From: Aquilaria yunnanensis
Taxonomy: Eukaryota > Streptophyta > Magnoliopsida > Malvales > Thymelaeaceae
Assembly (NCBI GenBank): GCA_039654915.1
Contig: CM077594.1
Coordinates: forward strand, 107,212,893 to 107,276,892
Direction: 5' to 3'
Length of the DNA: 64,000 bases
Notes under the pieces: model-generated
Seen by the model: only the letters and a program-made list of their open reading frames with translations
Told to the model about the DNA's origin: nothing
Databases searched by the model: none
Part shown: positions 16,206-64,000 of the stretch, piece by piece
How positions within the stretch are numbered: position 1 is the first letter of the stretch
How the letters are laid out: each line of letters begins with the position of its first letter
Position numbers and translations under genes: made by a program

Positions 16206-18589
<2,384 letters not shown>

Positions 18590-19185: not shown

Positions 19186-19715
19186 AGGTAAAATTATAAA
19201 CTTCACCTGAGGTTGACCTAACCAACACTTTACCTTCACTTCTTTTATAATATCTAACAATAATTTTTAAAACCTTAATTTAAAAGATCTGACAACTATA
19301 TTCTAGTAATTATGAAATTCTTAATATTTTTTTAACAGTGAACTGACATTTAAAACATAATTATTTGCATGTATAAAGTGGAAAATGTATTTATAAAGAA
19401 TAAAAATTGATAATTAAAAATGACTATTAACTATAAAAATATATTGAAGACATTGAAATATGGAAAGATTTGACTATTGTATGGCTGTTGACACCCAATT
19501 TCTTTGGGCGTTTTAACAAAGTTGTTTTAACGTAACCGTACTCCCGAACCCCCGAACTCTCGTAGACCAATATTTAAGGTGACCAATCGACCTAGGTAAA
19601 CTGATTGGTGGCGACTCCCGAAAACCCGACGTTGCCACAATGGCTTAAACTAAGATTTCAAAACTTGTTATCGAATAATGTAAAAGAAGCAAAGGCAGCT
19701 TTAAGTTTTCAAAAA
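19186..19715. mobile_element. Foldback element interrupted by a solo LTR
   Basis: The left arm (19186-19330, with CACTTCTTTTATAATATC and ACCTTAATTTAAAAG) is matched in reverse complement by 19645-19705. The right arm is split from the loop by the 154-bp LTR at 19486-19639. Its right terminus merges with the next foldback element, so the outer boundary is approximate. Confidence 0.65.
19486..19639 (-). mobile_element. 154-bp solo LTR with perfect target duplication
   Basis: The element begins TGTTGACACCCAATTT and ends GTTGCCACA on the plus strand and is flanked by ATGGC at 19481-19485 and 19640-19644, a perfect 5-bp target-site duplication. Its sequence matches both ends of the much longer LTRs at 51229-54066 and 54481-55297 in inverse orientation, with the whole LTR middle missing. 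It is therefore either a miniature LTR family member or a deletion derivative that transposed. Orientation is given as minus because its plus-strand start corresponds to the LTR end seen in reverse in the other two copies. Confidence 0.85.
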
Positions 19716-25520: not shown

Positions 25521-28500
25521 TTACAATCTTCTAAGACCCATTGCTCTAACATGTCGAGCAAATACAAGTGGTGGCAATGGCTTAGTGAGAGGATCTGCCA
25601 CCATCAGGTCTGTAGAAATGTACTCAATCCTAACTTCACCCTCTTCAATTGCATCTCGCACAAAGTTATATTTCATGCTAATGTGCTTGGTCTTTCCATG
25701 GTATTTGGGGTCCTTGGTATAAGCCATGGCTGTCATACTATCACTGTAGATAGTAATAGGTTTCTTAATAGAAACCCCGGACTCCAAATTCTTAAGGAAA
25801 TAAGCTAGCCAAAGGGCTTCTTGTACAACTGAGGCACATGAAACAAATTCAGCCTCCATTGTGGACAATGCTGTACAAGTTTGCTTCTTACTACACCAAG
25901 TAGTAGCCCCACCATTTAGCATGAAAAGATAACCAGATGTAGACTTGCTAGAGTCTCTATCTCCTCCCAAATCAGCATCAGAATAGCCACGTAAACCAAG
26001 GTCTTTACCTTGGTAACAAAGCCAATAATCCTTAGTACCCTTGAGGTATCTTAGGATTCTCTTGACACTCTTCCAATGCTTTAGACCAGGGTTGGAAGAA
26101 TATCTTGCTAGAAGTCCAACCGCTTGGCTGATGTCTGGCCTTGTACATAACATGGCATACATCAAGCTACCAATGACACTTAGGTAGGGGATCTGAGTCA
26201 TCTCTTCCTTCTCCTTTGGAGTCTTAGGACATAAGTCCTCTCCAATCTTGCAACCATATGCAAGAGGTGTACTCATGGGCTTTGCATTTGTTAAGTTAAA
26301 CCTTGCAAAATTCTTATCAATATAAGGCTCTTGAGAAAGGGCCAACAGCCTTGCCTTTCTATCCCTCAGGATCTTAACCCCTAGGATAAAGGCAGCCTTT
26401 CCCATGTCCTTCATGTCAAAGGTGGAAGACAACCATCCCTTGATGGTACTTAACAACGCAGGCCCATTACTTGCAATCAGTATATCATCTACATATAGAG
26501 TCAATACTGCAAAATTAGACCCAGAAGAGTACAAGTACACACAATGGTCTTCATGCATCATCACAAAGCCATAGCTTGTGATTGCATGGTGAAACTTCAA
26601 GTACCACTGTCTTAAAGCTTGCTTAAGACCATAGATAGACTTCTTTAGTCTACAAACCTTGTCCTCTTGACCCTTTTGGACAAAAGCCTCATGTTGTCTC
26701 ATATATATCTCCTCACTCAAATCACCATTGAGAAAGGCGGTCTTTACATCCATCTGATGTAACTCTAGGTCTAGATTTGCCATGATGGCAAGTAATATCC
26801 TGATGGAAGTGAATTTTACAACATGAGAGAATGTGTCTTTGAAATCAACACCCTCCTTCTGTGTAAAACCCTTGGCCACCAAACGGGCCTTATATCTTTC
26901 AATACTTCCATCAGAGTTCACCTTGATCTTGAGAACCCACTTGTTCCCAATTACCTTACGGCCTGAAGGAAGATCACTTAGCTCCCAAACCCCATTGAGA
27001 TGCATTGAATGCAACTCATCCTTCATTGCATTTAGCCACTCTTCCCTCTGTGCACCCTCAAGAGCCTTTTTAATGTTACTTGGCTCATCTATCTCAAATG
27101 CAACCAAATTTGCCTCACTATCCAAGATCCACCATTCTTTAGGTGGTCCAAATTTCCTCATTGATCTTCTCAATGTAGGCTGAGATGGAGGCAACTCATG
27201 CTCAATCTCTTGAGGCTCAACATTTTGCTCTTGAGTATCCTCAACTCCCTCTTGAACAAAACCTTCCTCTTGGAGGTCTTGCTCATGTTAGTCCACAACA
27301 ACAGGCATTTCTGGAGCCATTGCTCCATGTGGTTGAGGTACTCCCTCTAGAGTTGGTGCATGTGTCCCAGGTGTCCTTATGACACTTGGTTGATCCTCAT
27401 CTAGGATCTGGCTTAATGAGGTTAAGTCACATTCACCAACTTTGGGGAACTCATCCTCCACAAAGTTAGCATTCCTTGCATCAAAGATGTTCCCAGTTTT
27501 GTGACTTATATCCAAGAACACATAACCCCTAGATTGTTCAGCATAACCAAGGAAGGCACACCTCCTCCCTCTTGGACCCAACTTTCCCAAATGGTGGTCC
27601 GTTATGTGAACATAAGCTAAACAACCCCAAGGGCGTAAATAGCTTAGGTTAGGAGTTTTCTTCTTCCATAACTCATATGGAGAAGAGTTCACATTCTTGG
27701 TGGGTACTCTGTTAAGGACATGAACTGCATATAGCAGTGCATCACTCCAATAAGTGATGTCTAAATTGGCCTTTGCCATCATGGAACGTACCATGTCCAT
27801 AAGAGTTATATTCTTCCTTTCAGACACTTCATTCTGTTGGGGTATCCAAGGAAGAGTGAACTCCCTCTCAATACCCTTCAAGTCTCAAAATGCCTTGAAT
27901 GCATTTGATGTATACTCTCCACCCCTATATATCCTCAAGGACTTAACCTTCTTACCTACTTGGTTCTCAACCAAGTGCACATACTTCTCAAAGCATGCTA
28001 AGGCCTCTGCCTTGTTTCTCAGTAAGTAGATGTGGGTGAATCGAGTATAATCATCCATGAAAGTGATGAAGTACTTAAATCCATTTCTGGATTCAACTCT
28101 CATTGGTCCACACAGGTCAGAGTGAACTAAACTTAGTGCCTCACTTTTCCTAGTTGCTTTGCCAAAAGGCTTTCTTGTGGCTTTGCCCTCTAGGCATGAT
28201 TGGCAACTTGGAAGGACAACCTTGGTCAAGAAACCTAGCAAATCCACTCTTAGCTAGCTTGTCCATTCTATCTTGACCAATATGACCCAACCTCTCATGC
28301 CATCTCATTTCATTTGTGACCTTTGTCACATAGCAACTAGGACTTGCAACAGAATGGTCAATTGGCTTCAACTCATAAAGCCCATTATTAATTGAACAAG
28401 TGCATACTATCTGATCATCTTTAATAATAGACACATTATTATTAAAGAAATTAAAGCAATAATTGTACTTCAAAATACAACTTATAGAAATCAAATTTCT

Positions 28501-29574
28501 ACAAATGTTTGGTACATACAATACATCTATTAGATACAAATATCCAATATCCACAGGAATTCTACATGTTCCTATGCCTTCTACTTCCAGCCTGGCATCA
28601 TTCCCCACTGAAACGTGCTTAGCTCCTTTTGAGAGCTTCCTGTAGGCCACAAACTAGGACCTGTCCTAGGCTATGTGGTCTGTTGCTCCCGAGTCTACAA
28701 TCCACAAAGAATTGCACTCAGTTAGTAATATACATGACACAACATGTACAATGGAAGTAGAAGGGTATGTATGTACCTTGGGTGGACCCTTGCAATCTTT
28801 TGCAAAGTGTCTCTTATGCCCACAGTTGAAGCACTTCAGCTTGTTTATGTCCCGCTTCTTCTTGAACTTTTTCTTGGAAGCAGGGCATTTTCCCTTGCCC
28901 TTCCCTGGCCCTCCTTTGCCACCATTCTTCTTCCATCATTTCTGGATAGAAGATGAGGCAATAAATGCCTTAGAATGGTCCTTGAAGGCCATCATCTCAG
29001 CCTCAAGGAGGAGGTGATGAGCAATGTCATCAAATGACATTATTTGAGGGTTATGGCGTAAGTTGACCTTCATCAATTGTCATTCCTCATCGGGCAAGGA
29101 ACGGATTATTGCTTGCACTTGTTGCTCATCAGTGAGCACATGCCCAGCCGACTTGAGTTGGTGGATCATGCGTGACATTTCACGTAAGTGAGCACTCATA
29201 GAATGATCAGCACGCTTCATATAATTCTCAAACCTGAGAATTATTGAGCGTTGTTTCTCCACAGAAACATCTCCATACTTGGCTTTGACCGAGTCCCATA
29301 TGGCCTTGGCCCCCTCAAGCATGGAGAATTCCACCATAATCTCATCCAGCATAGTGGAAAGGAGAGTGACTCTACACATAGAGTTCTTCTTTAGGAATGC
29401 CTCATAGGCAGTCCTATTCTATCCCTCAGCAGGAGGCATGATCTCATGAGTGAGCACATCAAGAGTATCTTGCTCAGTTAAAATGAATTTGACCTTCTGT
29501 TGCTAAATTGAATAGTTTTCACCATCCAATTTGAGGTCACGATTTAATTCTGCAACTATATTCTTACAAGTCAT
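25521..29574 (-). pseudogene. Copia gag-pol polyprotein, broken by stop codons
   Basis: Domain order on the minus strand: gag from an ATG at 29574; zinc knuckle CFNCGHKRHFAKDC (CX2CX4HX4C) near 28830; protease motif DSGATDH near 28690; GAG-pre-integrase (MRWHERLGHIG) near 28300; integrase core 28130-27700; reverse transcriptase with intact YVDD and RNase H in an open stretch of 557 codons at 25521-27194. In-frame stops interrupt gag (at least four), the segment after protease (two), integrase (one, near 27886) and the linker before reverse transcriptase (near 27288). Most gag and protease stops fall where relatives have tryptophan, as TGG to TAG or TGA. The second integrase catalytic aspartate is replaced by tyrosine (IYRGGEY). 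The reverse transcriptase half looks intact as a sequence, but no functional polyprotein can be made. Confidence 0.93.
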
Positions 29575-45582: not shown

Positions 45583-46640
45583 GATAGATATATATATAAA
45601 CTATGTAACACATATACACAAATTAGATCGTAAAAATGTTACTGATATGTTATTTTTATTTGTAAATGATTTTATAATTTTTTCCACATTATTCTTTTTC
45701 ATTTGTACCTATGAAAAAAAAAATTAGTTTGAAAATAAAAGTTGGGGTAAAATTAGTTAAAAGGAGAAATAGTGAGGGTTGAAGTCAAATAAGTCCAAAA
45801 AATTCTAAAAACACTGTTGCGTTCGTTTCTCGTGACGAACCAGATCTCCCTCCTCCGTGCGACCATCGAGTTGAAGACGAACCAAATCGGCAGCGAGTAG
45901 ATAGATCGACAGCGAGCGGCAAGAAGAATGGTGGCGAGCGGCGCACACGTTTGCCAGCGACCCAAAATACCGGATCCACAACCGATCGCCGAACTCCTTC
46001 GCCGCGTCTCACCTATGCCGCTGATCTAGCCACCCGTGATCGATGCGCACATGCCCAGCCGTCATCCGTCACACCAACAACCGAATCAGCCCGAAGGTGA
46101 TGCCAAACGGCGAAAGAAACGAGCAACGCAATTAAGCGTAGGAGAGAGAGGAAGGACATGGTAGGGATTATTTTATTTGACAAGGATAAAACTGTCTTTT
46201 TAGCCATAGGGCATACATAACATAAGCTGAGGCGCATATAGGACAAATGCGTCTCTAGCTAAAGCTTGTCAAGCTTTCGCTAATAAGAAACAATAACTTA
46301 TGCAATGGGCCCCAACATTTACAGCTGGTGTTCCAGGTGTCTAAAGTTTAGATAAAACTAATACAAACTAAATACAACACGTAAGTAAAGAAATCAACAC
46401 CGCGACACTTGTTTTTCAGCACATCCATGAACTTCAACCCAGCCAAGAACCGTCCGTCTTGTTTCATCTGATAATTAGCGTTGCTCGAATCACAGCTCTC
46501 CACATCCTTTTCGTTACCGCCAATCAGGCATGAGCCACGCTTTAGGATGACAATCCCCAAATAGTGATTTGACCTGCCCAGGCAGCCACCCCATAAACTT
46601 TTAAATACCGGCAAGAGTATTGAGTTCTTGTCTCCTTCAT
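45583..46640. other. Unassigned DNA upstream of oxidoreductase copy 2
   Basis: Contains a moderately GC-rich block (45820-46080) with overlapping short minus-strand frames and a 100-codon minus frame at 46348-46650, none recognised. Its right end overlaps the promoter of the oxidoreductase gene. Confidence 0.4.
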
Positions 46641-46646
46641 TATATA
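46641..46646 (+). promoter_or_regulatory. Probable TATA box of oxidoreductase copy 2
   Basis: TATATA lies 40 bases before the ATG at 46686. The following leader (AAGAAAACTCCTTGTTAG) resembles the leader of the paralogue on the minus strand. Confidence 0.5.
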
Positions 46647-46685
46647 TCATTGTTATATGTAAGAAAACTCCTTGTTAGTGCAGCC

Positions 46686-48099
<1,414 letters not shown>

Positions 48100-50433: not shown

Positions 50434-51094
50434 TAGGCTGGTTCATTTCCATTTAATGTGAATTAATTCAACCGCATTAATTAACTTGAATTGAGTTGAT
50501 TCGCAGGTTAAAAATGACCCGCTTAGGTTGAATGTAATTTGGACATTGAATTTGCTAGATTTACACTTTATGCCACTCCTTATCATACTGTTGAAGTTTG
50601 TTTTTAACTGGCGTTGCCATGTCTCTGACGCAGTTTTCAATGAAGCCCAAATTTATGAGAAGATCAACGAAACCCAAACGTGGATCGCCTTGCTGAAGTC
50701 TTGATATGCCATTTGCAGAGACTAATTCATTGGCGGGATAGGTGAACAAAGCAGGGAATCAAAGCAAAAAATACTGAGAGGAATATGTGGTGGGAGCGGG
50801 AAAGGTAGAGAATCAGAGCAAGAAAGGCGGTCAACGATAGACAATTAGACAAGGAAAGGCTGAGAATAGCAGAGAATCATAGTAAGAAAGGCAAAGAACG
50901 ACAAGGCTGAGGTGATGGAGAACAACAGGGACAGTGTGACCAAAAACAGAAGATGACATGGGTGAAATTTTTACAAATCCAATGACCAAATTGTGTCCAA
51001 TCTAAGCTAGCTACATTTAACCTATGAATTGAACCAACCCAGTTTTATTAATGCAATTGAATTAATGTACATTAAATGGAAACGAACATCCTCT
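50434..51094. mobile_element. Non-autonomous TIR element, hAT-like
   Basis: The left end TAGGCTGGTTCATTTCCATT and the reverse complement of the right end TAGAGGATGTTCGTTTCCAT begin imperfect inverted repeats of about 110 bases (sharing TTAATTCAA and GGTTAAA blocks). The ~660-bp interior has no transposase. The flanks share only a partial TAAGTS match, so the target duplication is uncertain. Confidence 0.65.
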
Positions 51095-51228
51095 AAGTCA
51101 CTCAGTTTAATAACTCTGCCTTAACATCTTCTCAACTTCTCAAACTTTCTTCCTCAATCTGCAGTGTATCCATTTGGACTTGGCTTTTAGTTCAAATATG
51201 TTTAGTCAATCTATTATCTTATGGTCAT

Positions 51229-54066
51229 TGTGGCAACGTGCGGGGTTTTCTGGAGTCGCCACCAATTGGTTTTCGCTCAGGTCGATTGGATACATTAAAA
51301 ATATGGTCTGTGAGAGTTCGGGGGTTCGGGAGTACGGTTACGTTAAAACAACTTTGTTAAAACGCCAAAAAATTGGTACCTTAGTTGATTTCCATTTTTG
51401 TTTTGCTTGCTTTTAAATGACTTTAGTTAATTTTCAAACTAGAAAATTTAACTGAATTAGTCGGATGTGGATTAATATGGTATTTACAATTTTTGGTAAT
51501 TAATTTGTATAATTTTTTTAATAAATTTGATATTTCCGAACTATGGACTCTACTGAGTCACCCGGACACGGAATTTGATGAAATTTTAATTAAATATTTT
51601 AATCCATATCATAATTTTTACCAAATTATCAGAATATGGATTTTTATCCTGATACTTAATTTTATTTCATTTAAAATTTTATTTTTCTTCTCCAAGCCAT
51701 AAATCCTATCAGATCACCCGGTCATGGAATTTGATGAAATTTTAGTTAATTATTAAATATTTTAATTAATTAATAATCCATATCATAAATTCTACCGAAT
51801 TATCAGAATATGGATTTTATCCTGATATTTAGTTTTATTCATTTAAAACTTTTATTTTTTTTTCTCCAAGTCATGAATCCTATTGGATCACCCAGACATG
51901 GATTTTAATTTAATTTTTTGTTTATTTAATTAATTATTAATTTTAATCATAATTTTTAATATTTTTTAATATTTTATTATCATTTTTCTATTTTTCTTAA
52001 ATTTTTAATTATTATTATTATTTTAATCTAATCCATAAAATTTAAAGATATATTGAAAAAGAATTGATTTTTATTTTTTGGAATTATTTAATTATGCTTG
52101 TTTAATAATTTTAATAAAAAGGAAATAAATGGTTAACTTTTTGAAGAAATAAATAAAAAATAAAAAAAAATATATGTGTTCCAAAATAGTAGAGGATGCG
52201 GGCTTTGTAATAAAAATGGATTCTTGATTAGTCCTAAAAATAAAGTTAATTATTTCACATAAAAAAAAAAATTCTTCTTTTATTTTGTTATTATTTTATT
52301 TTTTTATAGCCGAAAGTGAAATAAGTTTGACCATCTATATAAAAAATACATAAACTAAATAAAGGACAAATAAATAAATAAAAAATAAAGTGGGGCTTTT
52401 TGGCCATCCACTTAAAAAAAAATTCACAAATTAAATAACATATGCAAATAAATAAATAAATAAACAAATAAAAGCACATAAAGTAAATAAACGAAAGTTA
52501 AAGGATAATAAATAAATAAATAAAAATAACGTGGGGCTTTTTGGCCATTCACTTAAAAAATTAAATAAATAGGAGGTATAACCTTCCATGAATAATAATA
52601 ATAATAATAATAATAAAAGTTAGTTGTTAGTAATTAGTTCTGCAAAAATTAAAAGGTTAGTGACTTATAATAATAATAATAATAATAAAAGTTAGTTGTT
52701 AGTAATTAGTCGTTAATAATAATAACAATAAATAATGAATAAACAAGTAAATATAAAAGAGTTAGTAATTAGTTTTCTGCAAGGATAAAAGAAAGGTTAG
52801 TGACCAAAGAGAAAGAAAATGAAAAGATGAAGGACTAAAATAGAATTTGACCCTAGGAAAACAAAATTGTAATTCTGTCACAGGAACACGACGAACTTGG
52901 CGCCGGCAGCGTGCAGGGGCGAGGTGGACGGCGGCCAGGCGAGCAGGCGACGACGGTGGCAGCGTACCGGGAGGGCGACGGCGACGGTGAGTAGAGGGAG
53001 GAGGAGGAGGAGGAGGAGGGCCGGAGGGAAAGGCGCGACGGGCGAAGGGGGGGATGCGGCGGGGCAGAGGAAGGGAGAGGAGGAAAGAAGGCGAGCCGAA
53101 AGGGAAATGGCGACGGCGTCGGGCAAGGGAGAAGAAAAAAAAAAAAAGGAAGACGACGACAAGCGGAGGGGGATGACGTGTCGACGGCGAAGGTGGACGG
53201 GATAACGGCGGGGAACGGCGAAAGAAACGGAAGTGGGAACGGGGGTTAAACGGGCAGAGAGAGAATTCTGGTTTTCTGGGAAGAAGAAGGAGAGGCCAGG
53301 GACTAAACTACAGTTTTTATTTTTTTTTAAAACGGAGCTCTAATCTTGATTTCTTTTTTTTTTCCCTCTTCTTTACAGAATTCCTTATTTATAGCAGAAG
53401 GAGTGCTGGACTGTTCATAATTAAAAAATAATTAAAATCAAACTTATCTCTTAATTTGGTAAAATGACAGTTTCAGTCCTTTCCGTCTCTTTTGACTTTC
53501 GGGATATTCCTAAAACTTCTGATTGAGACAATTTTATCTTTTTCTGTCAATTTGGGCCAGAACCGTCGGTCTGGCCCAAAATTGATGTGATAAACTACCA
53601 AATGCTCCTGGAACTTTCATATTTTGTCAAATTTTTCCAAAACTTCTTAATTTTGTCATTTTTACCCCAAACTTTTCAATTTTTTTTGTTTGTTTGTTTT
53701 TTTTTTAGTTTTCTTTTGTAATTCCTACATACATACATACACACATATATTATTTTTAACTAAACCCCTATAAAACAAAATATATTTTAAACTAATTAAT
53801 TAAAATTTTTTAGTAATAATAATTAATTAGTTAATAATAATAATTTTTTAATTTTTTTTTTTGAATTTTAATTTCTTTGGATATACACACATAGATATTA
53901 ACTTAACAAAATGCCCCTTCCCCAAAACTATTTAATTTAATTCTCTCTTTGTATAATTAATTAATAATAATTTTTATATAATTATTATTTTTTTAATTTT
54001 TAATTAATTTTTTTTAATTATTATTTTTTTAAAAAAGAAGGGGTCGGACGAAATTGGGTGTCAACA
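51229..54066 (-). mobile_element. 2.8-kb solo LTR, gypsy-type
   Basis: Starts TGTGGCAACG and ends GGTGTCAACA on the plus strand; flanks are GTCAT (51224-51228) and GTGAT (54067-54071), a one-mismatch 5-bp duplication. The first ~170 bases and the last ~25 bases match the small LTR at 19486-19639 in reverse, and much of the right half matches the LTR at 54481-55297. The interior includes duplicated GTGGGGCTTTTTGGCCAT blocks, ATA microsatellites (52588-52616, 52668-52688) and a GC-rich block (52890-53230) whose arginine- and proline-rich frames are compositional artefacts. No internal coding region is present, hence a solo LTR. Confidence 0.75.
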
Positions 54067-54071
54067 GTGAT

Positions 54072-54480
54072 CTATTTTTTTTCTAAAGACAAGTTTGTTG
54101 GTATATATTACACAACATGACTGGTTTGGCAGTGGACTGTGGTTCGCCATTTCATTGATGTTGATTTGACTAAGCCTAAAGAAAATGACATGAAGTTTGT
54201 AATGGAGATAAGTAATATCTGACTACATGGATTAGGGGATTTGTATTGATTTTTTGTTTTATTTTTGTGTTTTTATTTTTGTTAGCACATGTTCAAATGT
54301 TACGCTTGGATGTAATGTGTTAGTCCAACTGTGTGTTGGTTTGTGTTATTGTGTTGTTACATCTAGTTAGTTTGTTGGTTTGTTATTTTGGTCTATCTGT
54401 TTATATCTATATGTATGAATATTAAAATTACCAAAATTATTCATGGAAGTTTTTTTTTCCTAGTATAGTTTCATTAGGAC
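54072..54480. other. Short host segment between two LTRs
   Basis: About 400 bases of unassigned AT-rich DNA separating the solo LTR from the 3' LTR of the next element. Confidence 0.5.
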
Positions 54481-55297
54481 TGTGGCAACGCCGGGTTTTC
54501 TGGAGTCGCCACCAATCAGTTTTTTTCTTAGGTCGATTGGTCACCTTAAAATTGGTCTGCGAGAGTTCGGGGATCGGGAGTACGGTTACGCTAAAACAAT
54601 ATTGTTATAGCGCCCAAAATTGGCACCTTAGTTGATTTTAATTTTGTTTTACTTTGCTTTTAAATAATTTTCAGTTAATTTAGAGATTTTAACTGAATTA
54701 GTCGAAATGTGGATTTTTAAGTTAATTTGTATAAAATTTTATACTTCCGAACCATGGACTCTGCCGAGTCATTTGGACACGGAAGATTTTGATTCCGAAC
54801 CATGGAAGTTTGGCTGAACTGTTGATGGATAAATTAATAAAAAATTTCAAACTTATCTTTTAAATTGGTAAAATGACAATTTTAGTCCTTTACGTCTCTC
54901 AGTCTCTGGATAAGTTCCTGAAGCTTCTGATTTTGACAATTTTGTCGTTTTCTGTTAATTTGCGCCAGAAACGTCGGCAGGCCCAAAATTTTATGTGACA
55001 AACTACCAAATGCTCCTGGAACTTTCAGAATTTGTCAATTTTTCCCGAAACTTTTTAATGTTGTCATTTTTACCTCAAACTTTTAAATTTTGCCATTTTT
55101 TTGGAGTTTTCTTTTTTTCTTTCAAATACACACATATATCATTTTAAATCAAATCTTCACAAAAAAAAATGTATTTTAAACTAATTAAAATTTTTAGTAA
55201 TAATAATAATAATAATAATAATAATTTTTTTTATTTAATTTCTTTTATTTAATTTCTTTTAAAATTTTTTATGGTCGGACGAAATTGGGTGTCAACA
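54481..55297 (-). repeat. 3' LTR of the cargo-bearing element
   Basis: 817 bp, starting TGTGGCAACG and ending GGTGTCAACA on plus. It matches the first ~360 and last ~450 bases of the 2.8-kb solo LTR, so about 2 kb of LTR middle is missing. The base 3' on plus (55298) starts a polypurine tract in reverse rather than a target duplication, which identifies this as the 3' LTR of a minus-strand element. Confidence 0.75.
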
Positions 55298-55310
55298 GCT
55301 GCCCCCCTTT
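55298..55310 (-). other. Polypurine tract
   Basis: On the minus strand AAAGGGGGGCAGC directly precedes the LTR start TGTTGACACC, as expected for the plus-strand primer of an LTR retroelement. Confidence 0.75.
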
Positions 55311-55439
55311 GCATGCTTCATGAGACATGATGTATGCAAAGTCGTTACCAAATTTCGTCCGGCTTAGCTAGGCATTGAAAACCTTTTCGCCGCCTAAATC
55401 CTGAGGTTAAGGAACTCTCCTTAGAACCCCGGCGATAGG

Positions 55440-55975
55440 AGCTCTCCTATCGTTGAAGGAAAATTGATTGTTTCTGAGGCAAAGGTTCTATCCTTAAAAC
55501 CTCGGATTGATTGATTGATTTCGAAGCAAAGGTTCCATCCTTAAAACCTCGAATTGATTGATTGATTTCGAGGCAAAGGTTCCATCCTTAAAACCTTGAA
55601 TTGATTGATTGATTTCGAGGCAAAGGTTCCATCCCTAAAACCTCGGATTGATTGATTGATGTCGAGGTAAAGGTTCCATCCTTAAAGCCTCGAATTGATT
55701 GATTGATGTCGAGACAAATGTTCCATCCTTAAAACCTCGGATTGATTGATTGATGTAGAGGTAAAGGTTCCATCCTTAAAACCTCGAATTGATTGGTTGA
55801 TTTCGAGGCAAAGGTTCCATCCTTAAAACCTCAGATTGATTGATTGATTTCGAGGCAAAAGTTTCATCCTTAAAACCTCAGATTGATTGGTTGATTTCGA
55901 GGCAAAGGTTCCATCCTTAAAACCTCGGATTGATTGATTGATTTTGAGGCAAAGGTTCCATCCTTAAAACCTCGA
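55440..55975. repeat. 47-bp tandem repeat array
   Basis: About eleven copies of a 47-bp unit containing TTCGAGGCAAAGGTTCCATC followed by CTTAAAACCTCGRATTGATT. Units differ by occasional substitutions. This array runs into the 51-bp array to the right. Confidence 0.9.
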
Positions 55976-56716
55976 TGATGAAAATTGATTATTTTCGAGG
56001 CAAAGGTTCCATCCTTAAAACCCCGATGATGAAATTTGATTATTTTCGAGGCAAAGGTTCCATCCTTAAAACCTCGGATTGATGAAAATTGATTGTTTTT
56101 GAGGCAAAGGTTCCATCCTTAAAACCCCGATGATGAAAATTGATTATTTTCGAGGCAAAGGTTCCATCCTTAAAACCCCGATGATGAAAATTGATTCTTT
56201 TCGAGGCAAAGGTTCCATCCTTAAAACCCCGATGATGAAAATTGATTGTTTTCGAGGCAAAGGTTCCATCCTTAAAACCCCGATGATGAAAATTGATTGT
56301 TTTCGAGGCAAAGGTTCCATCCTTAAAACCCCGATGATGAAAATTGATTGTTTTCGAGGCAAAGGTTCCATCCTTAAAACCCCGATGATGAAAATTGATT
56401 ATTTTCGAGGCAAAGGTTCCATCCTTAAAACCCCGATGATGAAAATTGATTATTTTCGAGGCAAAGGTTCCATCCTTAAAACCCCGATGATGAAAATTGA
56501 TTATTTTCGAGGCAAAGGTTCCATCCTTAAAACCTTAGATTGATGAAAATTGATTATTTTCAAGGCAAAGGTTCCATCCTTAAAACCCCGATGATGAAAA
56601 TTGATTATTTTCGAGGCAAAGGTTCCATCCTTAAAACCCCGATGATGAAAATTGATTCTTTTCGAGGCAAAGGTTCCATCCTTAAAACCCCGATGATGAA
56701 AATTGATTTTGAGGCT
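55976..56716. repeat. 51-bp tandem repeat array
   Basis: About fourteen copies of a 51-bp variant of the same unit (CCCCGATGATGAAAATTGAT then TATTTTCGAGGCAAAGGTTC). Because 51 is a multiple of three, frames stay open on both strands and give a repetitive 17-residue peptide; I treat that as an artefact. Confidence 0.92.
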
Positions 56717-57256
56717 AAAGAGCTTTCCTTAGGACCTCGAGCGAAATTTATATGAAAGCAATTGAAATTGGAATAATTTTCTTCGAAAGTGTGAATTTTC
56801 ATAATAGGTGAGTGCAAAAATTTAAACTTCGATAAGATGAGTGAATCTTGATGTTGACAATAACACTGACAAATTATGTAAAGGGAACGGATGTTTGGAA
56901 TCAATATCCAAGGTTCATCTAATATTTTCTTCAGTAAATATAGATTCCCTTGTGAGATATGTCATCCAAATAAGGTTAAAGCTTAACTACCCCAAAATGT
57001 TATGCCTAGTAGACCTAATAGGATGCGTCTCAAGAGTAATAAAAATTACTCTTTACTCAGCCATTCCAACCTAAAAGCATTGTCCCATGGTTTTAATATC
57101 AGCATGGACGAAACTATCTTATAAGATAACGAAATTCCCTGAAAATAAAAACTGAAATACGAAAGAAAATGCTGATAATTAAAACTAAAGGACAAGAAAA
57201 ACGGATCAGATCGCTTCTTTCTTCCACAATACTTCAACAGGGTGAGTAGAGGACCA
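56717..57256. other. Unassigned DNA between the tandem array and the LOG-like gene
   Basis: No supported gene. On the minus strand this is the region downstream of the LOG-like stop codon and would hold its 3' untranslated sequence. Confidence 0.4.
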
Positions 57257-57886
57257 TTATGGGAGTGAACTGGTCGGGAAAAACTGTCGTGTCCAGTCTA
57301 TCTGAATCATTGCTGGATCTGGTTCAGGAACAAAAGCTTGTATTTTATCTAGCAATTCTTCAGCAGTTGTTGCGGATATTATGATTCGCCGTGCCACTCT
57401 TGATATGAAATTCTTCTGCATAGCATAATCCATAAAAGCTATCAGACCTGTAAAGAAATTGTTAACATTTAAAAGCCCAATGGATTTCTTATGCAAATTA
57501 AGTTGGGCCATGGAAGCAATTTGAAAGACTTCTCCCAATGTGCCAAAATCACCTGGTAGAGCGATAAAAGCATCAGCATTTAAAAGCATTTGTAACACAC
57601 GCTCTTGCAGATTTTTTACCACTAGCTCCTCTCCGATCGTGCCCCCAGAAATAAACTTCAAAGGTCCTGGGATAATGCCTAGAACTTGACTTCCTCCTAA
57701 AGATGCTGCTGATGCTACGCCTCCCATTAATCCGACACTACCTCCTCCATAAACTAAATGTATTTTACGCTCAGCTAATACTCTACCCAAATGGTTGGCT
57801 GCCTTTAAATATTCTTCATCTTTTCCAGGAAAAGCCCCAGAAAATACACAAATACTTCGGGATTTACGAGTTGAGGTTTTCTCCAT
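57257..57886 (-). CDS. Intronless LOG-like cytokinin riboside 5'-monophosphate phosphoribohydrolase
   Basis: Family enzymes release active cytokinin bases from their ribotides in the cytosol. The 209-residue protein has SICVFSG (11-17), YGGGSVGLMGG (46-56), Arg96 at the position of the conserved active-site arginine, the catalytic-loop equivalent PGDFGTLGE (111-119) and SIGLLNV (135-141). The family signature is PGGxGTxxE: the glutamate (Glu119) is kept, but the third position is Asp instead of Gly, so activity is uncertain. Plant LOG genes normally have several introns; this copy has none, which points to a retrocopy. An upstream in-frame ATG at 57973 would add 29 residues, but that stretch contains the TATA box, so the start at 57886 is chosen. 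It lies in the sense direction of the surrounding retroelement, with a promoter module shared with the neighbouring ORFs. Confidence 0.85.
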   Translation of the reverse strand: MEKTSTRKSRSICVFSGAFPGKDEEYLKAANHLGRVLAERKIHLVYGGGSVGLMGGVASAASLGGSQVLGIIPGPLKFISGGTIGEELVVKNLQERVLQMLLNADAFIALPGDFGTLGEVFQIASMAQLNLHKKSIGLLNVNNFFTGLIAFMDYAMQKNFISRVARRIIISATTAEELLDKIQAFVPEPDPAMIQIDWTRQFFPTSSLP

Positions 57887-57916
57887 TCCTATCCTTACTC
57901 TTGTGAGAAAAGAGGA

Positions 57917-57926
57917 TATATTTATA
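57917..57926 (-). promoter_or_regulatory. TATA box of the LOG-like gene
   Basis: CTCTATAAATATATCC on the minus strand, about 35 bases before the ATG at 57886, gives a very short leader. The preceding ~60 bases (with GGCAATAATGTATCC and TTATCTCTTCATC) are homologous to the same region before the cysteine-motif ORFs. Confidence 0.7.
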
Positions 57927-57964
57927 GAGATGAAGAGATAAGGCAATAATTTTATTTTCAAGAA

Positions 57965-58510
57965 TGGATACATTATTGCCAGCTATTCACAGTAGTCACG
58001 AGTATGACTCTGGTCAGGTATGGGTACACTATCGTTAAAAGAGGAGGAAAATTTTCAAAATAGCTGCTAGCATGTACAGTAGTCACTACTGTAGCTTACG
58101 TCAGGAGTAGGTACGTGATTGTTGGAAGAAAAGGAAAATTTCAAAAGTGGCAGCTATATACAGTAGTCCGTGTCAGGAGTGGGTACATTATTGCTAAAGG
58201 GGAGGAAAATTTCAAAAGCGACAGCTAGCACGTACAGTATCGTGACTATGGCTCATGTCAGGAGTGGATACATTATCGCCGAAAGGGGAGGAAAATTTCA
58301 AAAGCGACAGCTAGCACGTACAGTAATCGTGACTTTGGTTCATGTCAGGAATGGATACATTATCGCCGAAAGGGGAGGAAAATTTCAAAAGCGACAGCTA
58401 GCACGTACAGTAATCGTGACTTTGGTTCATGTCAGGAGTGGATACATTATTACCAAAAGGGGATGAAAATTTCAAAAGCGACAGGTAGCACGTACAGTAA
58501 TCGTGACTTT
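57965..58510 (-). repeat. ~87-bp tandem repeats upstream of the LOG-like gene
   Basis: Six to seven copies of a unit containing GGAGTGGATACATTATCGCC, GGAGGAAAATTTCAAAAGCG and ACAGCTAGCACGTACAGTA; the three rightmost units are nearly identical at 87 bp, the left ones more diverged. The unit is recognisably the distal promoter segment found once upstream of each cysteine-motif ORF (59200-59290 and 60050-60130), here amplified. Confidence 0.85.
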
Positions 58511-58559
58511 GATCCTCGTCTTCCACTGGCTTTGCGTCCAGTAATGGCTTCAATACTTT

Positions 58560-59107
58560 CTATGAATCGGTGATTTGCATCTCATCTAGCTTTCTCACAA
58601 ACTGGCAATCAGGGTCGTTTAAGGTCAGATTCCCAAGACTGTAACGTTCTCGTTCTTTTTGGAGAATTATCCATAATCCAACAACCTCAAATGGCACTAT
58701 CCGCAAGAATGCGCTTCAAGAACCTCTCGGATATCTTCCAGAGATTCCTTACGCAAGCCATTCTTGATGAATTTTATTCTATCTTCACGATTTCTGGTAA
58801 TCACTCCTGGAGAACGACATTTAGCACCGCAAATCCACCATCCACAATTGTGACAGACGCCTAGCCTCTTTGCTCTTCTCTTTTTGGCATAAGCGCTTTT
58901 ACCAAAGCCGGGCATACGGGGAAAGAACGCATCTGGAACTTCACCAGCCGAACGAACTTTAGCTTCGATTAGCCATCGCACATTATCAGGAATGCCTTTG
59001 TGCATAAATAGTCGGAATCGTTCACATCTAGCTTGATAAATCTTTTTAAGAACATTTATTGGGAAGGAAGGAAAATACTTTCGTAGGGCGGAAAGAGAAG
59101 ACTCTAT
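58560..59107 (-). pseudogene. Cysteine-motif ORF, copy 1, decayed
   Basis: Paralogue of the two intact 182-codon ORFs to the right. The position of their ATG is ATA here (59105-59107), and after the conserved HSCG the frame hits a stop at 58697-58699 owing to an apparent 1-base deletion; the homologous C-terminal region continues in another frame to 58560. The basic stretch and all four cysteines (VCHNCGWWICGAKC) remain. Both lesions make it a probable pseudogene. See copy 3 for the family discussion. Confidence 0.75.
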
Positions 59108-59164
59108 TGATGAAGGAGGCAAAGAAAGAAATTAGTGATTGTAGGAAACGATAATAACTAACAC

Positions 59165-59174
59165 ATATTTATAG
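59165..59174 (-). promoter_or_regulatory. TATA box of cysteine-motif copy 1
   Basis: CACTATAAATATGTG on the minus strand, preceded by GACAATAATGTAC and TTATCCCTTTCATC, as in the LOG-like promoter. Confidence 0.6.
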
Positions 59175-59323
59175 TGATGAAAGGGATAATGCGTTAATTA
59201 CACTTACAGAAGCAAGTACATTATTGTCAAAAGAAAAGACAAATGACAGCTTATATGTATAGCAATCATGACTGTGGCTCTCATCTTCCACTGATTTATA
59301 TCTAGTAATGGCTTCAATGCCTT

Positions 59324-59872
59324 CTATGAGTCGAGGACTTGCTTCCCATCCAGTTTTCTTACAAGCTGGCAGACAGGGTCGTTTACAGTCACATTCCCAA
59401 GACTGTAACGGTCTCGTTCTTTATGGTAAGTCCTCCACAATTTGATAATTTGACCTTGCACTTTTCCACAAGAATGCGTTTTAAGAGTCTCTCGGATATC
59501 TTCCAGAGATTCCTTACGCAGGCCATTCTTAATGAATTTTCTTTTATCTTCACGATTTATGGAGATGTATCCTAAAGAGCGACATTTAGTAATACAATTC
59601 CATCGCCCACATTTATAACACACGCCTAGTCTCTTTGCTCTTCGCCTTTTGGCATAACGGCTTTTACCTAAACCGGGCATGTGGGGCATAAATGAATCTG
59701 GAACTTCACCTGCCAAACGGACCTTAGCTTCAATTATCCACTGCACATTATCGGGAATGCCTTTGCGTGTAAAAACTCTGATTCTTTCACATCTAGCAAG
59801 GTAGATCTTTTTAAGGACTTTCATTGGAAGGGAAGGAAAGTATTTTCGCAGTGCAGAAAGAGTAGAATCCAT
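59324..59872 (-). CDS. Cysteine-motif protein, copy 2 (viral nucleic-acid-binding-protein-like)
   Basis: Intact 182-residue ORF. It matches copy 3 without gaps at roughly 70% identity by eye. It contains GKSRYAKRRRAKRLG (69-83), a C-X2-C-X4-C-X3-C cluster (Cys85, 88, 93, 97) and a conserved C-terminus with RYSLGN (155-160). The arrangement of a small GKS-type stretch, an arginine/lysine run and an immediately following cysteine cluster is that of the cysteine-rich nucleic-acid-binding proteins of betaflexiviruses, though cysteine spacing need not be identical. Function as nucleic-acid binder is inferred. The start codon is the first ATG and is shared with copy 3. Confidence 0.7.
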   Translation of the reverse strand: MDSTLSALRKYFPSLPMKVLKKIYLARCERIRVFTRKGIPDNVQWIIEAKVRLAGEVPDSFMPHMPGLGKSRYAKRRRAKRLGVCYKCGRWNCITKCRSLGYISINREDKRKFIKNGLRKESLEDIRETLKTHSCGKVQGQIIKLWRTYHKERDRYSLGNVTVNDPVCQLVRKLDGKQVLDS

Positions 59873-59992
59873 TGATGAGAGAAGAATTTGAGAAAAGAGG
59901 GAAATGAATCAGTTATTGTAGGAGACTGGAATAACCGACTTTAGAAGTCACGAGGTATCTTATCCGCTGCTTAATCAGAAGGAAGAACACGC

Positions 59993-60000
59993 ATTTATAG
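59993..60000 (-). promoter_or_regulatory. TATA box of cysteine-motif copy 2
   Basis: CACTATAAATGCG on the minus strand about 120 bases before the ATG at 59872. Upstream lie the same TTATCCCTTTTCATC and CTTGACAGATGTAC segments seen at copy 1. The longer leader contains a GTGACTTCTAAAGTCGGTT segment also present in copy 3. Confidence 0.6.
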
Positions 60001-60161
60001 TGATGAAAAGGGATAACGTGTCGATTACACTTAGGGGAGCATGTACATCTGTCAAGAGAAAATGCAAACTTTTCCAAATATAACAAACTGTATGTACAGT
60101 AATTGTGACTGTGACTCACATCTTCCACTGGCTTTACATCTAGTAACGGCATTAACGGCTT

Positions 60162-60710
60162 CTATGAGTCGAGGATTTGCTTCACATCCAGTTTTCTTAC
60201 AAGCTGGCAAACAGGGTCATTTACAGTCAGATTCCCGAGACTGTAACGGTTTCGTTCTTCATGAAAAATGCTCCATAAACCAAGAAGTTCACGTTGCACG
60301 GATCCACAAGAATGCGTCTCAAGAGTCAATTGGATATCATCCAACGAGTCTTTACTCAGGCCATTCTTAATGAATCGTATTTTATCTTCTCGATTATCTG
60401 AGATCATCCCTAAAGAACGACATTTAGTATTACAAGTCCACCGTCCACATTTATGGCAGACTTGTAACCTTTTCGCTCTTCGCTTTTTGGCATAAGAGCT
60501 TTTGCCTATACCAGGCATGTGAGACACAAATGCCTCTGGGATTTCACCTGCCAGACGAACCTTGGCTTTGATTAACCACCGCACATCTTCAGGGATTCCT
60601 TTGTGCATCAGAACTCTTAATCGTTCACAGCGAACTTGGTAGATCTTTTTGAGAATGTTCATTGGGAGAGAAGGAAAATATTTTCGTAAGACAGAAAGAG
60701 TAGGATCCAT
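60162..60710 (-). CDS. Cysteine-motif protein, copy 3 (viral nucleic-acid-binding-protein-like)
   Basis: Intact 182-residue ORF, first of the array in transcription order. The N-terminus is a helical-looking segment (LRKYFPSLPMNILKKIY). It is followed by GKSSYAKKRRAKRL (69-82), the cluster Cys85-X2-Cys88-X4-Cys93-X3-Cys97, FIKNGL (113-118), HSCG (133-136) and RYSLGN (155-160). The central region resembles the cysteine-rich nucleic-acid-binding proteins of plant betaflexiviruses, several of which are reported as silencing suppressors or nuclear transcription regulators. The long flanking regions are not familiar to me. If the link is real this is an endogenised viral gene that has been duplicated; otherwise it is a plant or retroelement zinc-binding family I do not know. 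No TATAAAT box is seen upstream of this copy. Confidence 0.7.
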   Translation of the reverse strand: MDPTLSVLRKYFPSLPMNILKKIYQVRCERLRVLMHKGIPEDVRWLIKAKVRLAGEIPEAFVSHMPGIGKSSYAKKRRAKRLQVCHKCGRWTCNTKCRSLGMISDNREDKIRFIKNGLSKDSLDDIQLTLETHSCGSVQRELLGLWSIFHEERNRYSLGNLTVNDPVCQLVRKLDVKQILDS

Positions 60711-60839
60711 TTTCTAGAGGGAAGTAAAAGACAGAAGAGAGGAAAGAATCAGTTATTATGGGCAACTGAGAGAACCGACTTGAGAGTCACGGAGTACCGT
60801 ATCCGCCGTTTAACCGGAAAAGTGGATCCTACTTTATTT

Positions 60840-61210
60840 TGGTATCATAGATATTTCTTATCTTTGATATCTCGTCAGGCATGACATTGATCCAGTCCTT
60901 GATTATTGAATCCATTGTCTGCTTTCGACGACAATATTTCTCGATATCCATGCTTATCTTTGACCATAGCTATTTCTTATCTTGGATACCGCTAAGCTGG
61001 CGTCAATTCTGTCCATCCAGGTGTAGCATCGATTATTGAATCAATTGCCAGGCTTTTGACAATATTGTCTACTTTATATTTTTTTGATATCTGCCTTATC
61101 CTTGGCTATAGCTATCTCTTATCTTGGATACTACTAGCTGGCGTCAATCCTATCCTTCCAGGTGTAGCCTCGATTATTGAATCGATTTCCAGGCTTTTGA
61201 CATATTGTCT
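60840..61210. repeat. Three ~125-bp tandem repeats
   Basis: Units at about 60840-60960, 60961-61083 and 61084-61210 share TATCTCTTATCTTGGATAC, GCTGGCGTCAAT and TTATTGAATCRATT; the first is more diverged. They lie upstream, in transcription order, of the cysteine-motif array. Confidence 0.8.
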
Positions 61211-62734
61211 ACCTTATCCTTGAATTCCTGATGCGGGTTGGTCCCGCATATTAGCTGTGTATCCAGTGATAGATTGTTAAGAGCTGATGACATTGAGATC
61301 TCAGCTTATACTGCTGTAACGGTGCGGTGGATGTGTTTCCCATTTGATTCCTATCATGTAAAAATCATGCATGCATGATGTGAAATGCATGAATGCAAAG
61401 CATGTGTAATTGATGGTTCTTTTTTTTATTTTTATTTTTATTTATATTTATTTTTTTATTTTTATTTTTTTTGGATTGATCTAGTTCTTCATATCTTTGC
61501 TTTACTGGATCCTCTTTATAATTGCCTTCTTGGACTATCATTGAATCTCTTTATGCTTTCCAGCTTTTGTTCACTGCCTCAAAAGCCCAACTCTTTTCAA
61601 AATCCCCTTTCTTTGACTTGTTCTTGAATTTTGGCCTCAATTTCTTTAAAGTTGGCCCGCCTCATAATTTATATCTCTTTCGGGTACTCATCCATTGTCA
61701 TGGATTTGATACCATCAAAGGCTTTACTTTCAATGTCTGCTTTGCCCATTTTCTTGTGGCCATGCCGACACTTGTTTACCCCCATGTTACAGTCCGAATG
61801 ATTGCTCTTCCTTAGACTCAGGTTCTGATCCATAAGACTTGCCCCCTTGTCTATTGAGCTTCTTTCTTGGCAGTACTTTTCTTGCGCTTAGTAGATACTA
61901 CTTTGCCCCCTTGATTATGGTGTTTATGTGGAAAGAGATATCATCTCGCCTTTGATTTAACAGAAGGTCGAGCATTTCTAGACCTTTGTGATGGCACTTG
62001 ATCGTAAATTTCTCTTACAAGAACCACATCTTATTAAAGAAAGACTCAAGCTATCTCCTCACTTTTAAGTCTACACACATTAATGAATAATGGTTTGGCC
62101 TTAAAGAAAAGCTTTCATCAATTTGCAAAGCTTGACAAAGTAATTTACGGTCTTTGTTTTTAATTAAAATATCTTGTCATTCTTCCCTTTCCAATTCGAA
62201 AACATAAACTGTGCAAGGCAATAAGGTAGAAACATGATTTACAATAATAGCCTTTTAACTGAATGAGGATGATATCGAGAGGTAAATGTTAGGTGTGAGG
62301 AAAGTTAAGTTTGAATGTTTTTTTTTTTTTTTGTGTCAGTCTTTTAGCTGAATGAGAATGATATTAAGAGGTAAATATTAGGTCTGAATAAAGTTAAGTT
62401 TGAGTGGTGTGAAAGAAGGGTCTTTTAATACTACTCGTGAGCAAATTTGATTATGGTGAAAAACTCAATAGTGATGACCTCAATTTGCCACTCTTTTCAG
62501 AAAGTTAGACCTCATCTGTTGCCCCTCAACTATTGTGATCTTTATGCATGCTTGGTTTGAGGGTTGCTTTTGTGTTCTAAACCGCCTTTGCAGGTTTTCA
62601 GTCTAGAATCCATAGCTCACTTTTTTCTTTTTTTTTTCTTTTGCTCTAGTTTGAGCCTTTTTTTTTTTTGTTTTTTTTGTTTTTTTTGTTTCCTGTTTTT
62701 TTTTGTAAGCTATGGTGATGACATACTTGATAAC
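61211..62734. other. Unassigned internal region of the LTR element
   Basis: This is where gypsy pol would be expected, but no protease, reverse transcriptase or integrase motif is seen on either strand. T-rich runs occur at 61420-61470 and 62315-62335. Frames at 61385-61815 are low in information. Confidence 0.5.
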
Positions 62735-63215
62735 TCTCTTGAAGTGAGATGACTCAAGTGGCCTTGCTTGCTCGTGCTTGTTCTCAGTCCTTTTTGGTTT
62801 TGAATTTTCCCTTGTTGTCTTTTGATGGAAGGGATGAACTTCTTCCTTTTCGGAGTTTTTGTTACAGAGAACCGAGATCATAGCCTTCTTGAAATGAGAT
62901 GATTCAAATGGCATTACTTGCTTGTATTTTCTCTCAGTCTCTCTTTTTTTTTTTGGTTTTGAATTTTCCCTTGTTGGCTTTTTGATGGAAGGGATGAACT
63001 TTTTCCCTTTTTTTTTTTTGGAGTTTGTGTTATAGAGAACCGAGATCGTATCCTTCTTGAAGTGAGATGACTCAAGTGGCTTTATTTGCTTCTTAGTCTC
63101 TCTTTTTTTTGGATTTTTTTTTTTTGGATTTTCCCTTTAATGGCTTTTTGATGGAAGGGATGAACTTTTTCTTTTCGGAGTTTGTGTTGCGGAAAACTGA
63201 GAACCTTTTTTTTTT
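62735..63215. repeat. Three ~150-170-bp tandem repeats with T runs
   Basis: Units starting near 62738, 62890 and 63058 share CTTGAARTGAGATGAYTCAA, TTTTGAATTTTCCCTTGTTG and TGATGGAAGGGATGAACTT. They differ mainly in T-homopolymer length. Confidence 0.85.
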
Positions 63216-63784
63216 TTGAGCATTTATGAGAATTGGGAAGCCACTGAAGTCATTTAATATGAGAGTTACCTTGTTTGGAAACTAACCCCAAACTTCTTGC
63301 AAGGATGTTGATAACCACTGTGAATTCTTTTTGAGGGTTGAGGTGCAACATATGAAATCCTTCTTACTAGATTTGGCAGCACTTTCAAGATCATTACTAT
63401 CAAATTTCCCTTAACTTTTTATTTTCACCCACGAGTAGTATCATTTAGAAAGCAAAGTATGATAGCAATAATGGATAGTATAATGGAAAGAGTGTAAAAA
63501 TGGAAAGTAGTAGAATGCACGCATCACATCTTTTTGTTGTACCAGAAAAAGAATAGCAGGTGTCCATTTAACAAAGACTACACCCTAGATTCTGGACTAA
63601 ATCTAGGAGATTTTTACTATTAGATTACTTTTGCAAGCTTTCAAAGATACAAGTTTATTCAAAGGATTCCCTGTCATTCGAAAATGTATGCGGACTGTTA
63701 GGTCAGATCTGACTTGGAGGCTTTCCAAAGTCAATGTAATTCTAGCTCGAAATCTTCACTTTTCAATTATCAATCACATCGGGC
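63216..63784. other. Unassigned region downstream of the gag fragment
   Basis: No supported gene; lies between the gag stop codon and the tandem repeats on the minus strand. Confidence 0.45.
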
Positions 63785-64000
63785 CTAGCAACTTGGACTT
63801 GGTTTTGCTTGATGAGGCGGCAATGGATTGTGGGTGACATTTGGCTCATCGGAAAAGTCCAACCACTTTGACTCGATTAATTGTTGAACTATACGCTTTA
63901 ATGCCATGCAGTTTTCCAAGCCATGGCCTGGAACGCCATCATGATATGGGCAGGTAATGTTAGGGTCATACCACCTTGGATATGGGGGTTTGAATGGCTT
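63785..64000 (-). CDS. Ty3/gypsy gag C-terminal fragment (runs off the right edge)
   Basis: The last 72 codons of a minus-strand frame, open at the window edge and ending in TAG at 63785-63787. It contains RWYDPNITCPYHDGVPGHGL and then ENCMALKRIVQQLIESKWLD, a C-X2-H... H-X4-C type knuckle and flank typical of plant gypsy gag proteins, followed by PNVTHNPLP, also typical. Autonomous relatives continue into protease; here the frame stops. Orientation agrees with the 3' LTR at 54481-55297. Confidence 0.8.
   Translation of the reverse strand, partial: KPFKPPYPRWYDPNITCPYHDGVPGHGLENCMALKRIVQQLIESKWLDFSDEPNVTHNPLPPHQAKPSPSC

Follow-up and report, generated by a model that had tools for sequence, protein, structure and literature searches.

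A long terminal repeat retroelement of Aquilaria yunnanensis carrying LOG-like and virus-type nucleic-acid-binding protein genes

We analysed a 64,000-nt window of Aquilaria yunnanensis sequence CM077594.1 (C2), and all coordinates below are those of this window; positions called window-equivalent lie beyond its right end. The window contains most of one long terminal repeat (LTR) retroelement on the minus strand, and the element continues past the right end of the window. Along the minus strand, its order is a gag-like open reading frame (ORF), three tandem ORFs (copies C, B and A) that match the nucleic-acid-binding protein (NABP) of carlaviruses and vitiviruses, an intronless gene resembling LOG, an array of 51-bp repeats, a polypurine tract and the 3' LTR. 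An earlier reading made from the letters of the window alone (the sequence-only reading) gave the same order, and the coordinates and Pfam matches agree with it. The features are as follows, from left to right.

54476..54480, no strand: left target-site duplication, AGGAC; its partner lies right of the window at C2:107281197-107281201
54481..55297, minus: 3' LTR with TG..CA ends, taken to be an internally deleted form
55298..55312, minus: polypurine tract, a purine-rich run directly beside the 3' LTR
55461..56708, minus: ~51-bp tandem repeat, about 25 copies, also present in the copy on C1
57257..57886, minus: LOG-like cytokinin nucleoside monophosphate phosphoribohydrolase ORF, 209 aa; the open frame reaches 57973
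57920..57930, minus: TATA box upstream of LOG; 8/8 fetched loci have TATAAAT at -40 relative to the ATG
58171..58511, minus: 87-bp tandem repeat between LOG and NABP-A
58492..59108, minus: NABP copy A, broken; PF05515 and PF01623 above cut-off on a 102-aa open piece
59167..59177, minus: TATA box of unit A
59324..59872, minus: NABP copy B, 182 aa, open; PF05515 E 1e-6, PF01623 E 4.1e-5
59905..59980, minus: conserved untranslated leader of unit B
59993..60003, minus: TATA box of unit B
60162..60710, minus: NABP copy C, 182 aa, open; PF05515 E 2.8e-7, PF01623 E 5.7e-6
60739..60820, minus: conserved untranslated leader of unit C
60953..61217, minus: 141-bp tandem repeat
62791..63202, minus: 168-bp tandem repeat
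63785..64000, minus: 3' part of the gag-like ORF; the whole frame is 316 aa and runs to window-equivalent 64735
window-equivalent 65727-68304, minus: 5' LTR, 2578 bp, in fetched chromosome sequence right of the window

The 5' LTR starts 1.7 kb past the window end, and AGGAC is present at both ends of the element. Directly inside the 5' LTR is a stretch, GCT-TGGCGACTCCACTGGGGAC, that resembles a primer-binding site. These three features had been predicted to lie rightward by the sequence-only reading, and all were found, with the cargo between the two LTRs. The 3' LTR is identical to the outer parts of the 5' LTR in 322/326 and 488/496 columns, and the 1756 bp separating these outer parts are partly related to the central portion of a further LTR, at 51229-54066. 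Because of this partial match, we take the 3' LTR to be the deleted partner, and the full-length LTR of the family is taken to be ~2.58 kb. The proposed 3' LTR is upheld by its TG..CA ends and its partner, in a shortened form. The two LTRs differ by ~10 substitutions in 820 sites, corresponding to an insertion age of about 0.5-0.9 million years at substitution rates of 6.5e-9 to 1.3e-8. The LTR at 51229-54066 is a related solo LTR of ~2.8 kb on the minus strand with flanks GTCAT/GTGAT, and a short solo LTR of the same type is found on the plus strand at 19486-19640, with ATGGC on either side.

A second whole copy is located on C1. Its LTRs are identical over 2574 bp, TATGG is found on both sides, and it has the same order as the window copy (gag, NABP C, B, A, LOG, repeat, LTR). 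Its frames for gag (742 aa), NABP C, B and A, and LOG are open, followed by the 51-bp repeats and the LTR. We searched the 842-Mb genome with the LOG protein and scored 150 of 3659 candidates. All 150 were full length, 98-100% identical and without stops, and they were found on C1-C9 and C27. LOG is thus intact in at least 150 places, counted by the LOG protein match alone. Eight LOG loci, the best protein matches, were fetched: the window's own (L027) and seven others. NABP-A adjoins LOG in 7/7 of the others (the cargo pair only) and is open in five of them (L028, L030, L032-L034); L033 equals L034 in both LOG and NABP-A. The expectation that other genomic copies would hold LTR and cargo together is borne out by the C1 copy for the whole element, and these seven loci repeat the LOG and NABP-A neighbourhood. 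L032 and L028 are far apart in LOG (synonymous substitutions per site, dS, 0.236) and close in the adjoining NABP-A (dS 0.017), so units seem to have been exchanged between copies.

Among 40 of 3130 LTR candidates scored across the genome, only the window's own 3' LTR matched all 819 queried bases, and the other scored candidates break at the deletion point of the window 3' LTR. Among the 38 LTR places typed (out of 41 in the list, without C3), 4 had a scored LOG within 16 kb, a weak comparison between the best 40 of 3130 LTR and 150 of 3659 LOG candidates. Twenty evenly spaced 10-kb samples of C2 contained no LOG, no element LTR and one NABP; zero LOG in 200 kb is expected with 150 LOG places in 842 Mb.

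No pol gene was found in the element, as the sequence-only reading had stated. Pfam gave no match to reverse transcriptase, RNase H or integrase in 13 minus-strand frames of >=45 aa at 60720-64000 or in three frames 5' of gag. The integrase frame of contig L001, described below, had no match in window 54481-64000 or in L002, L035 and L036; it does match locus L022. As far as these scans go, the element is non-autonomous. The piece at 63785-64000, which had been called a gag fragment, is the end of the 316-aa frame, and that frame reached no Pfam model at cut-off and had no reverse transcriptase or integrase match. We take the piece to be gag-like, also in view of the longer frame of the C1 copy, in which a protease domain (PF13650) matches weakly, below cut-off (E 2.6e-4). 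Tat/Ogre and Athila are our guesses at the lineage.

The identification of a LOG-like gene holds. The frame at 57257-57973 matches PF03641 (E 3.9e-27) and At2g37210 (PDB 2a33, E 1.3e-49), and it is intronless. The protein is probably 209 aa long, because relatives begin at the inner ATG (57886). Besides the PF03641 domain, the window LOG retains the putative catalytic Arg and, within the motif PGGxGTxxE, the last Glu. Its predicted activity is to free active cytokinin from the nucleotide form. Outside this genome, 2842 relatives of LOG were found at E<=1e-10 and 195 of NABP at E<=1, and 120 of each were listed. PGGxGTxxE is kept in 104/120 LOG relatives listed. Among the listed matches, Reevesia has LOG relatives at many loci spread over several chromosomes, and further ones are from Paulownia, Populus, Diplodiscus and others.

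The LOG tree contains 86 rows (the window LOG with 57 of element type, 24 host LOGs and 4 others), a part of the listed proteins. Element-type LOGs and the sampled host LOGs separate with support 100/97, and a Xanthoceras LOG branches basally on the element side. The element-type LOGs of other plants appear to be element-borne as well, judging by their copy number and shared contigs. A 1ydh-type LOG was considered as parent of the element LOGs and rejected, as it groups with the host LOGs.

Many LOG relatives end in an LxLxL C-terminus: 96/120 of those listed (P0121-P0240), and 93/98 at length 213-222. A basic stretch precedes it in 92/96 tailed relatives. Among the 98 relatives of that length, leucines are found at -7/-5/-3/-1 in 90/97/94/97 and Lys at -10 in 95, and the residues between vary. 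Canonical LOGs have the LxLxL end in 0/120, where the control consists of the 120 nearest kin of At2g37210 and not every LOG branch. The tail fits what we take to be the EAR repression motif, presumably bound by TOPLESS. In 8/8 loci read from this genome, LOG terminates in FPTSSLP without LxLxL, and P0121 also has no tail.

The three virus-like ORFs proposed by the sequence-only reading each carry PF05515 and PF01623 matches, and copy A is broken in the window. The matches of the window NABPs score 27-31.2 bits for PF05515 (cut-off 23) and 23.9-26.7 bits for PF01623 (cut-off 20.9). NABP-A is a pseudogene here, with the start codon missing and a frame shift near the 3' third. Among the matches listed, the closest relative of NABP-C is 95% identical, and the named relatives are from Xanthoceras and Orobanche. 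The cysteine spacing C-X2-C-X4-C-X3-C is found in 107/120 relatives listed and a basic run before CxxC in 111/120, and blocks conserved within the family lie beyond the viral domain. No PDB entry matched NABP by sequence, and the AlphaFold model has a mean pLDDT of 57. Searches of IMG/VR with single sequences, alignments and the conserved trailer pattern returned no relatives of NABP or LOG. With its basic stretch beside the cysteine cluster, NABP is predicted to be a nuclear protein that binds nucleic acid.

Two further elements carry an NABP unit. A scan of GTDB contigs gave one match, L001 (DAIEQH010000041.1, 1-3330), which is evidently plant DNA binned into a metagenome-assembled genome of Candidatus Nomurabacteria. 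In L001, an integrase (PF00665, PF17921) is followed after 204 bp by an open NABP on the same strand, and this NABP misses the PF01623 cut-off by 1.1 bits. No LOG-like frame was found among the ORFs of the 1 kb after NABP, and no LOG in the metagenome-assembled genome. A splice-acceptor-like tttctctgcag precedes the NABP leader of L001. In L022 (C2:71000001-71010000), gag (PF03732), protease (PF13650) and a remnant of integrase precede the NABP unit; the remnant is 48-56% identical to the L001 frame and has no Pfam match, and the surrounding 29 kb contains no LOG. A stretch resembling window 56994-57116 is found about 360 bp after the L022 NABP. We also compared 414 same-source LOG-NABP pairs on contigs of 1900-15000 nt. 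Three pairs are on contigs of exactly equal size (8723, 4511 and 2128 nt), with about 0.1 expected; three shorter coincidences are too small for both genes, and one LOG-NABP pair shares a chromosome.

The motif TCNCTATAAAT occurs three times in the 64 kb, with 0.25 expected, each time just upstream of LOG, A or B, and the pattern was picked after the sequence had been seen. It occurs again upstream of LOG, A and B in the C1 copy. The proposal of promoter remnants for each unit thus stands for LOG, A and B, where TATA boxes are present, and no TATA box was seen upstream of NABP-C in the window. Since TATA boxes precede them, LOG, NABP-A and NABP-B are likely to be expressed independently of the LTR.

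The untranslated flanks of NABP are conserved between the window and L001. The leaders are identical in 53/70 positions for unit B and 58/69 for unit C, compared with 104/183 and 115/183 third codon positions, and the trailers in 54/73 and 58/74. Because leader and trailer exceed the third codon positions in this comparison, the NABP unit seems to move as a cassette, and its flanks are probably under some constraint. Between window C and B, the leader (51/69) is hardly above the third positions (130/183), and the trailer (58/73) is above them. Rfam gave no match in L001 or window 51000-64000. The leaders (60739-60820, 59905-59980 and L001 1672-1740) may form short hairpins; a conserved RNA fold is a lead only, from three sequences with one compensated pair.

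Across the eight LOG loci, nonsynonymous substitutions per site (dN) are 0-0.0063 and dS is 0-0.237. Between copies there are as many as 30 synonymous changes and 0-4 nucleotide changes in codons altering an amino acid; L032 and L033 differ by 24 synonymous and 0 amino-acid changes. Between the window and the C1 copy, dN and dS are 0.0084 and 0.1329 for LOG and 0.0215 and 0.1355 for NABP-C. In the five open NABP-A loci, dN is 0-0.0215 and dS 0-0.097, and the paralogues B and C have dN 0.169 and dS 0.556 (dN/dS 0.30). Judged by these substitutions, the constraint on LOG shows as strong and that on NABP as weaker and uneven. We consider it quite probable that LOG is under selection at the level of the element. 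For NABP, the unevenness of the ratios lowers our confidence, and we regard such selection as reasonably probable.

Parts of this system have precedents. Steinbauerova et al. (2011) are said to have described Athila-like elements similar to LOGL4. LOG proteins are cytokinin-activating enzymes (PMC9289625), and a YgdH/LOG domain in Ty3/gypsy consensus sequences of Citrus and Populus is already in print (PMC9289625), sharing with the window element a LOG-type ORF inside a plant gypsy element. The section on these elements gives the domain only and does not mention NABP, a tandem array, promoters, selection, copy number or an absence of pol. The sequence-only reading knew of no described element of this composition; that has to be narrowed for LOG, and it holds for NABP and the package, since the literature covered, mainly freely accessible main texts, yielded no report of NABP in LTR elements, of a LOG plus NABP element or of an EAR-motif LOG in elements. 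The nearest structural parallels found are in a review of extra ORFs (PMC7264820) and in Retand elements (PMC11963269). Retand elements likewise have a long region before the 3' LTR with tandem repeats and extra ORFs, and some clusters are without coding domains; between pol and the 3' LTR, their sense ORFs have no known domain and their antisense ORFs are mostly TRP28. Unlike Retand as described there, the window element has its cargo in sense and from other families, with no reverse transcriptase or integrase found. Compared with plant LOG enzymes such as At2g37210 (PDB 2a33), the element LOG has the domain family and most catalytic residues in common, but it is on a separate tree branch, is intronless, has a high copy number and has many relatives with an EAR-like tail. 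PMC12172455 describes the viral NABP relatives as suppressors of silencing, and presents CVB p12 as a transcription factor that gives rise to hyperplasia. The element NABP shares the Pfam domain and the basic stretch followed by a cysteine cluster with such carlavirus/vitivirus NABPs (CRP; PMC12172455), but it is 182 aa long, has the spacing C-X2-C-X4-C-X3-C and an extra conserved C-terminal half, and resides in retroelements.

These observations suggest, and we think it likely, that the window element belongs to a recently mobile, non-autonomous Ty3/gypsy-type LTR retroelement family whose LOG and NABP cargo is kept for the benefit of the element. Its anatomy and mobility are close to certain. 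The space freed by the missing pol would hold four cargo units, three NABP and one LOG, and copies would presumably be made in trans by a related autonomous element. The cargo would persist by promoting the copying and transmission of the element itself: it would hold the cell in a dividing state and blunt silencing, with NABP, like its viral relatives, damping RNA silencing or altering transcription. This cytokinin/silencing mechanism is tentative, somewhat short of an even chance. A selfish element whose growth-promoting package joins cytokinin activation to a virus-type nuclear regulator or silencing suppressor, kept by element-level selection, with the NABP cassette moving between gypsy elements, would go further and is doubtful as a whole. 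Several points weigh against cargo kept for use. The PGG motif reads PGD (Asp) in the window LOG and L031 and is PGG in the other 6/8 loci, and all 8/8 loci of this genome have GTLGE where relatives mostly have GTLEE, so that LOG activity is not assured. The window, L029 and L031 each have a broken NABP-A, and an autonomous partner element was not found. Between the window and the C1 copy, NABP-B has dN 0.0192 and dS 0.0164, with no constraint visible over this short time, and dN/dS of NABP-A pairs ranges from about 0.12 to 0.70. The eight LOG loci were picked by protein similarity, which biases dN downwards; we uphold the constraint on LOG because neutral change at such dS would give far more amino-acid changes.

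The NABP-B and NABP-A ratios suit hitch-hiking cargo, in which LOG and NABP were captured once and copied along unhelpfully, their frames open only through the youth of the copies; recent bursts alone would leave open frames, given the identical LTRs of the C1 copy. We find this unlikely in view of the excess of synonymous changes in LOG, even in loci so chosen, the B/C ratio of 0.30 at dS 0.56 and the recurrence of both cargo families in many plants. Less likely still is a LOG that acts mainly as a nuclear regulator, its EAR-like tail recruiting TOPLESS-type corepressors to silence host genes and being lost in this genome. The frequency of the tail among listed relatives, its absence from the nearest kin of At2g37210 and its conserved leucine positions speak for such a role, but a tail missing from all eight fetched loci cannot explain the window element, and most listed relatives keep PGGxGTxxE. 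NABP might also be a fossil RNA-virus insertion (an endogenous viral element), swallowed or landed on by the retroelement and without a role, as PF01623 and PF05515 take their names from proteins of carlaviruses and other viruses. We regard this as very improbable for a 182-aa family with its own conserved blocks and 195 relatives, whose members follow integrase sequence in two further gypsy elements, L001 and L022. A chance neighbourhood of host LOG and NABP genes beside LTR fragments is refuted for the window and C1 copies by matching target-site duplications outside the cargo and by the same order in other copies, and we give it practically no weight.

Without detectable replication enzymes, this transposable element bears regulatory genes of hormone and virus type, and LOG is open at no fewer than 150 places. 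The finding links betaflexivirus NABPs to a large retroelement gene family. It opens to testing the standing question of whether genes carried by plant retroelements influence the host's development or silencing to the advantage of the retroelements. If true, the selfish growth package would parallel, in plants, oncogene-bearing retroviruses or T-DNA, and host cells would be steered towards division or de-silenced states where the element spreads.

Elsewhere in the window, degenerate pieces of a copia-type polyprotein (integrase, reverse transcriptase and RNase H by eye) are found on the minus strand at 25521-29418. Two similar split genes, at 16206-17624 on the minus strand and 46605-48099 on the plus strand, resemble plant quinone oxidoreductases by eye.

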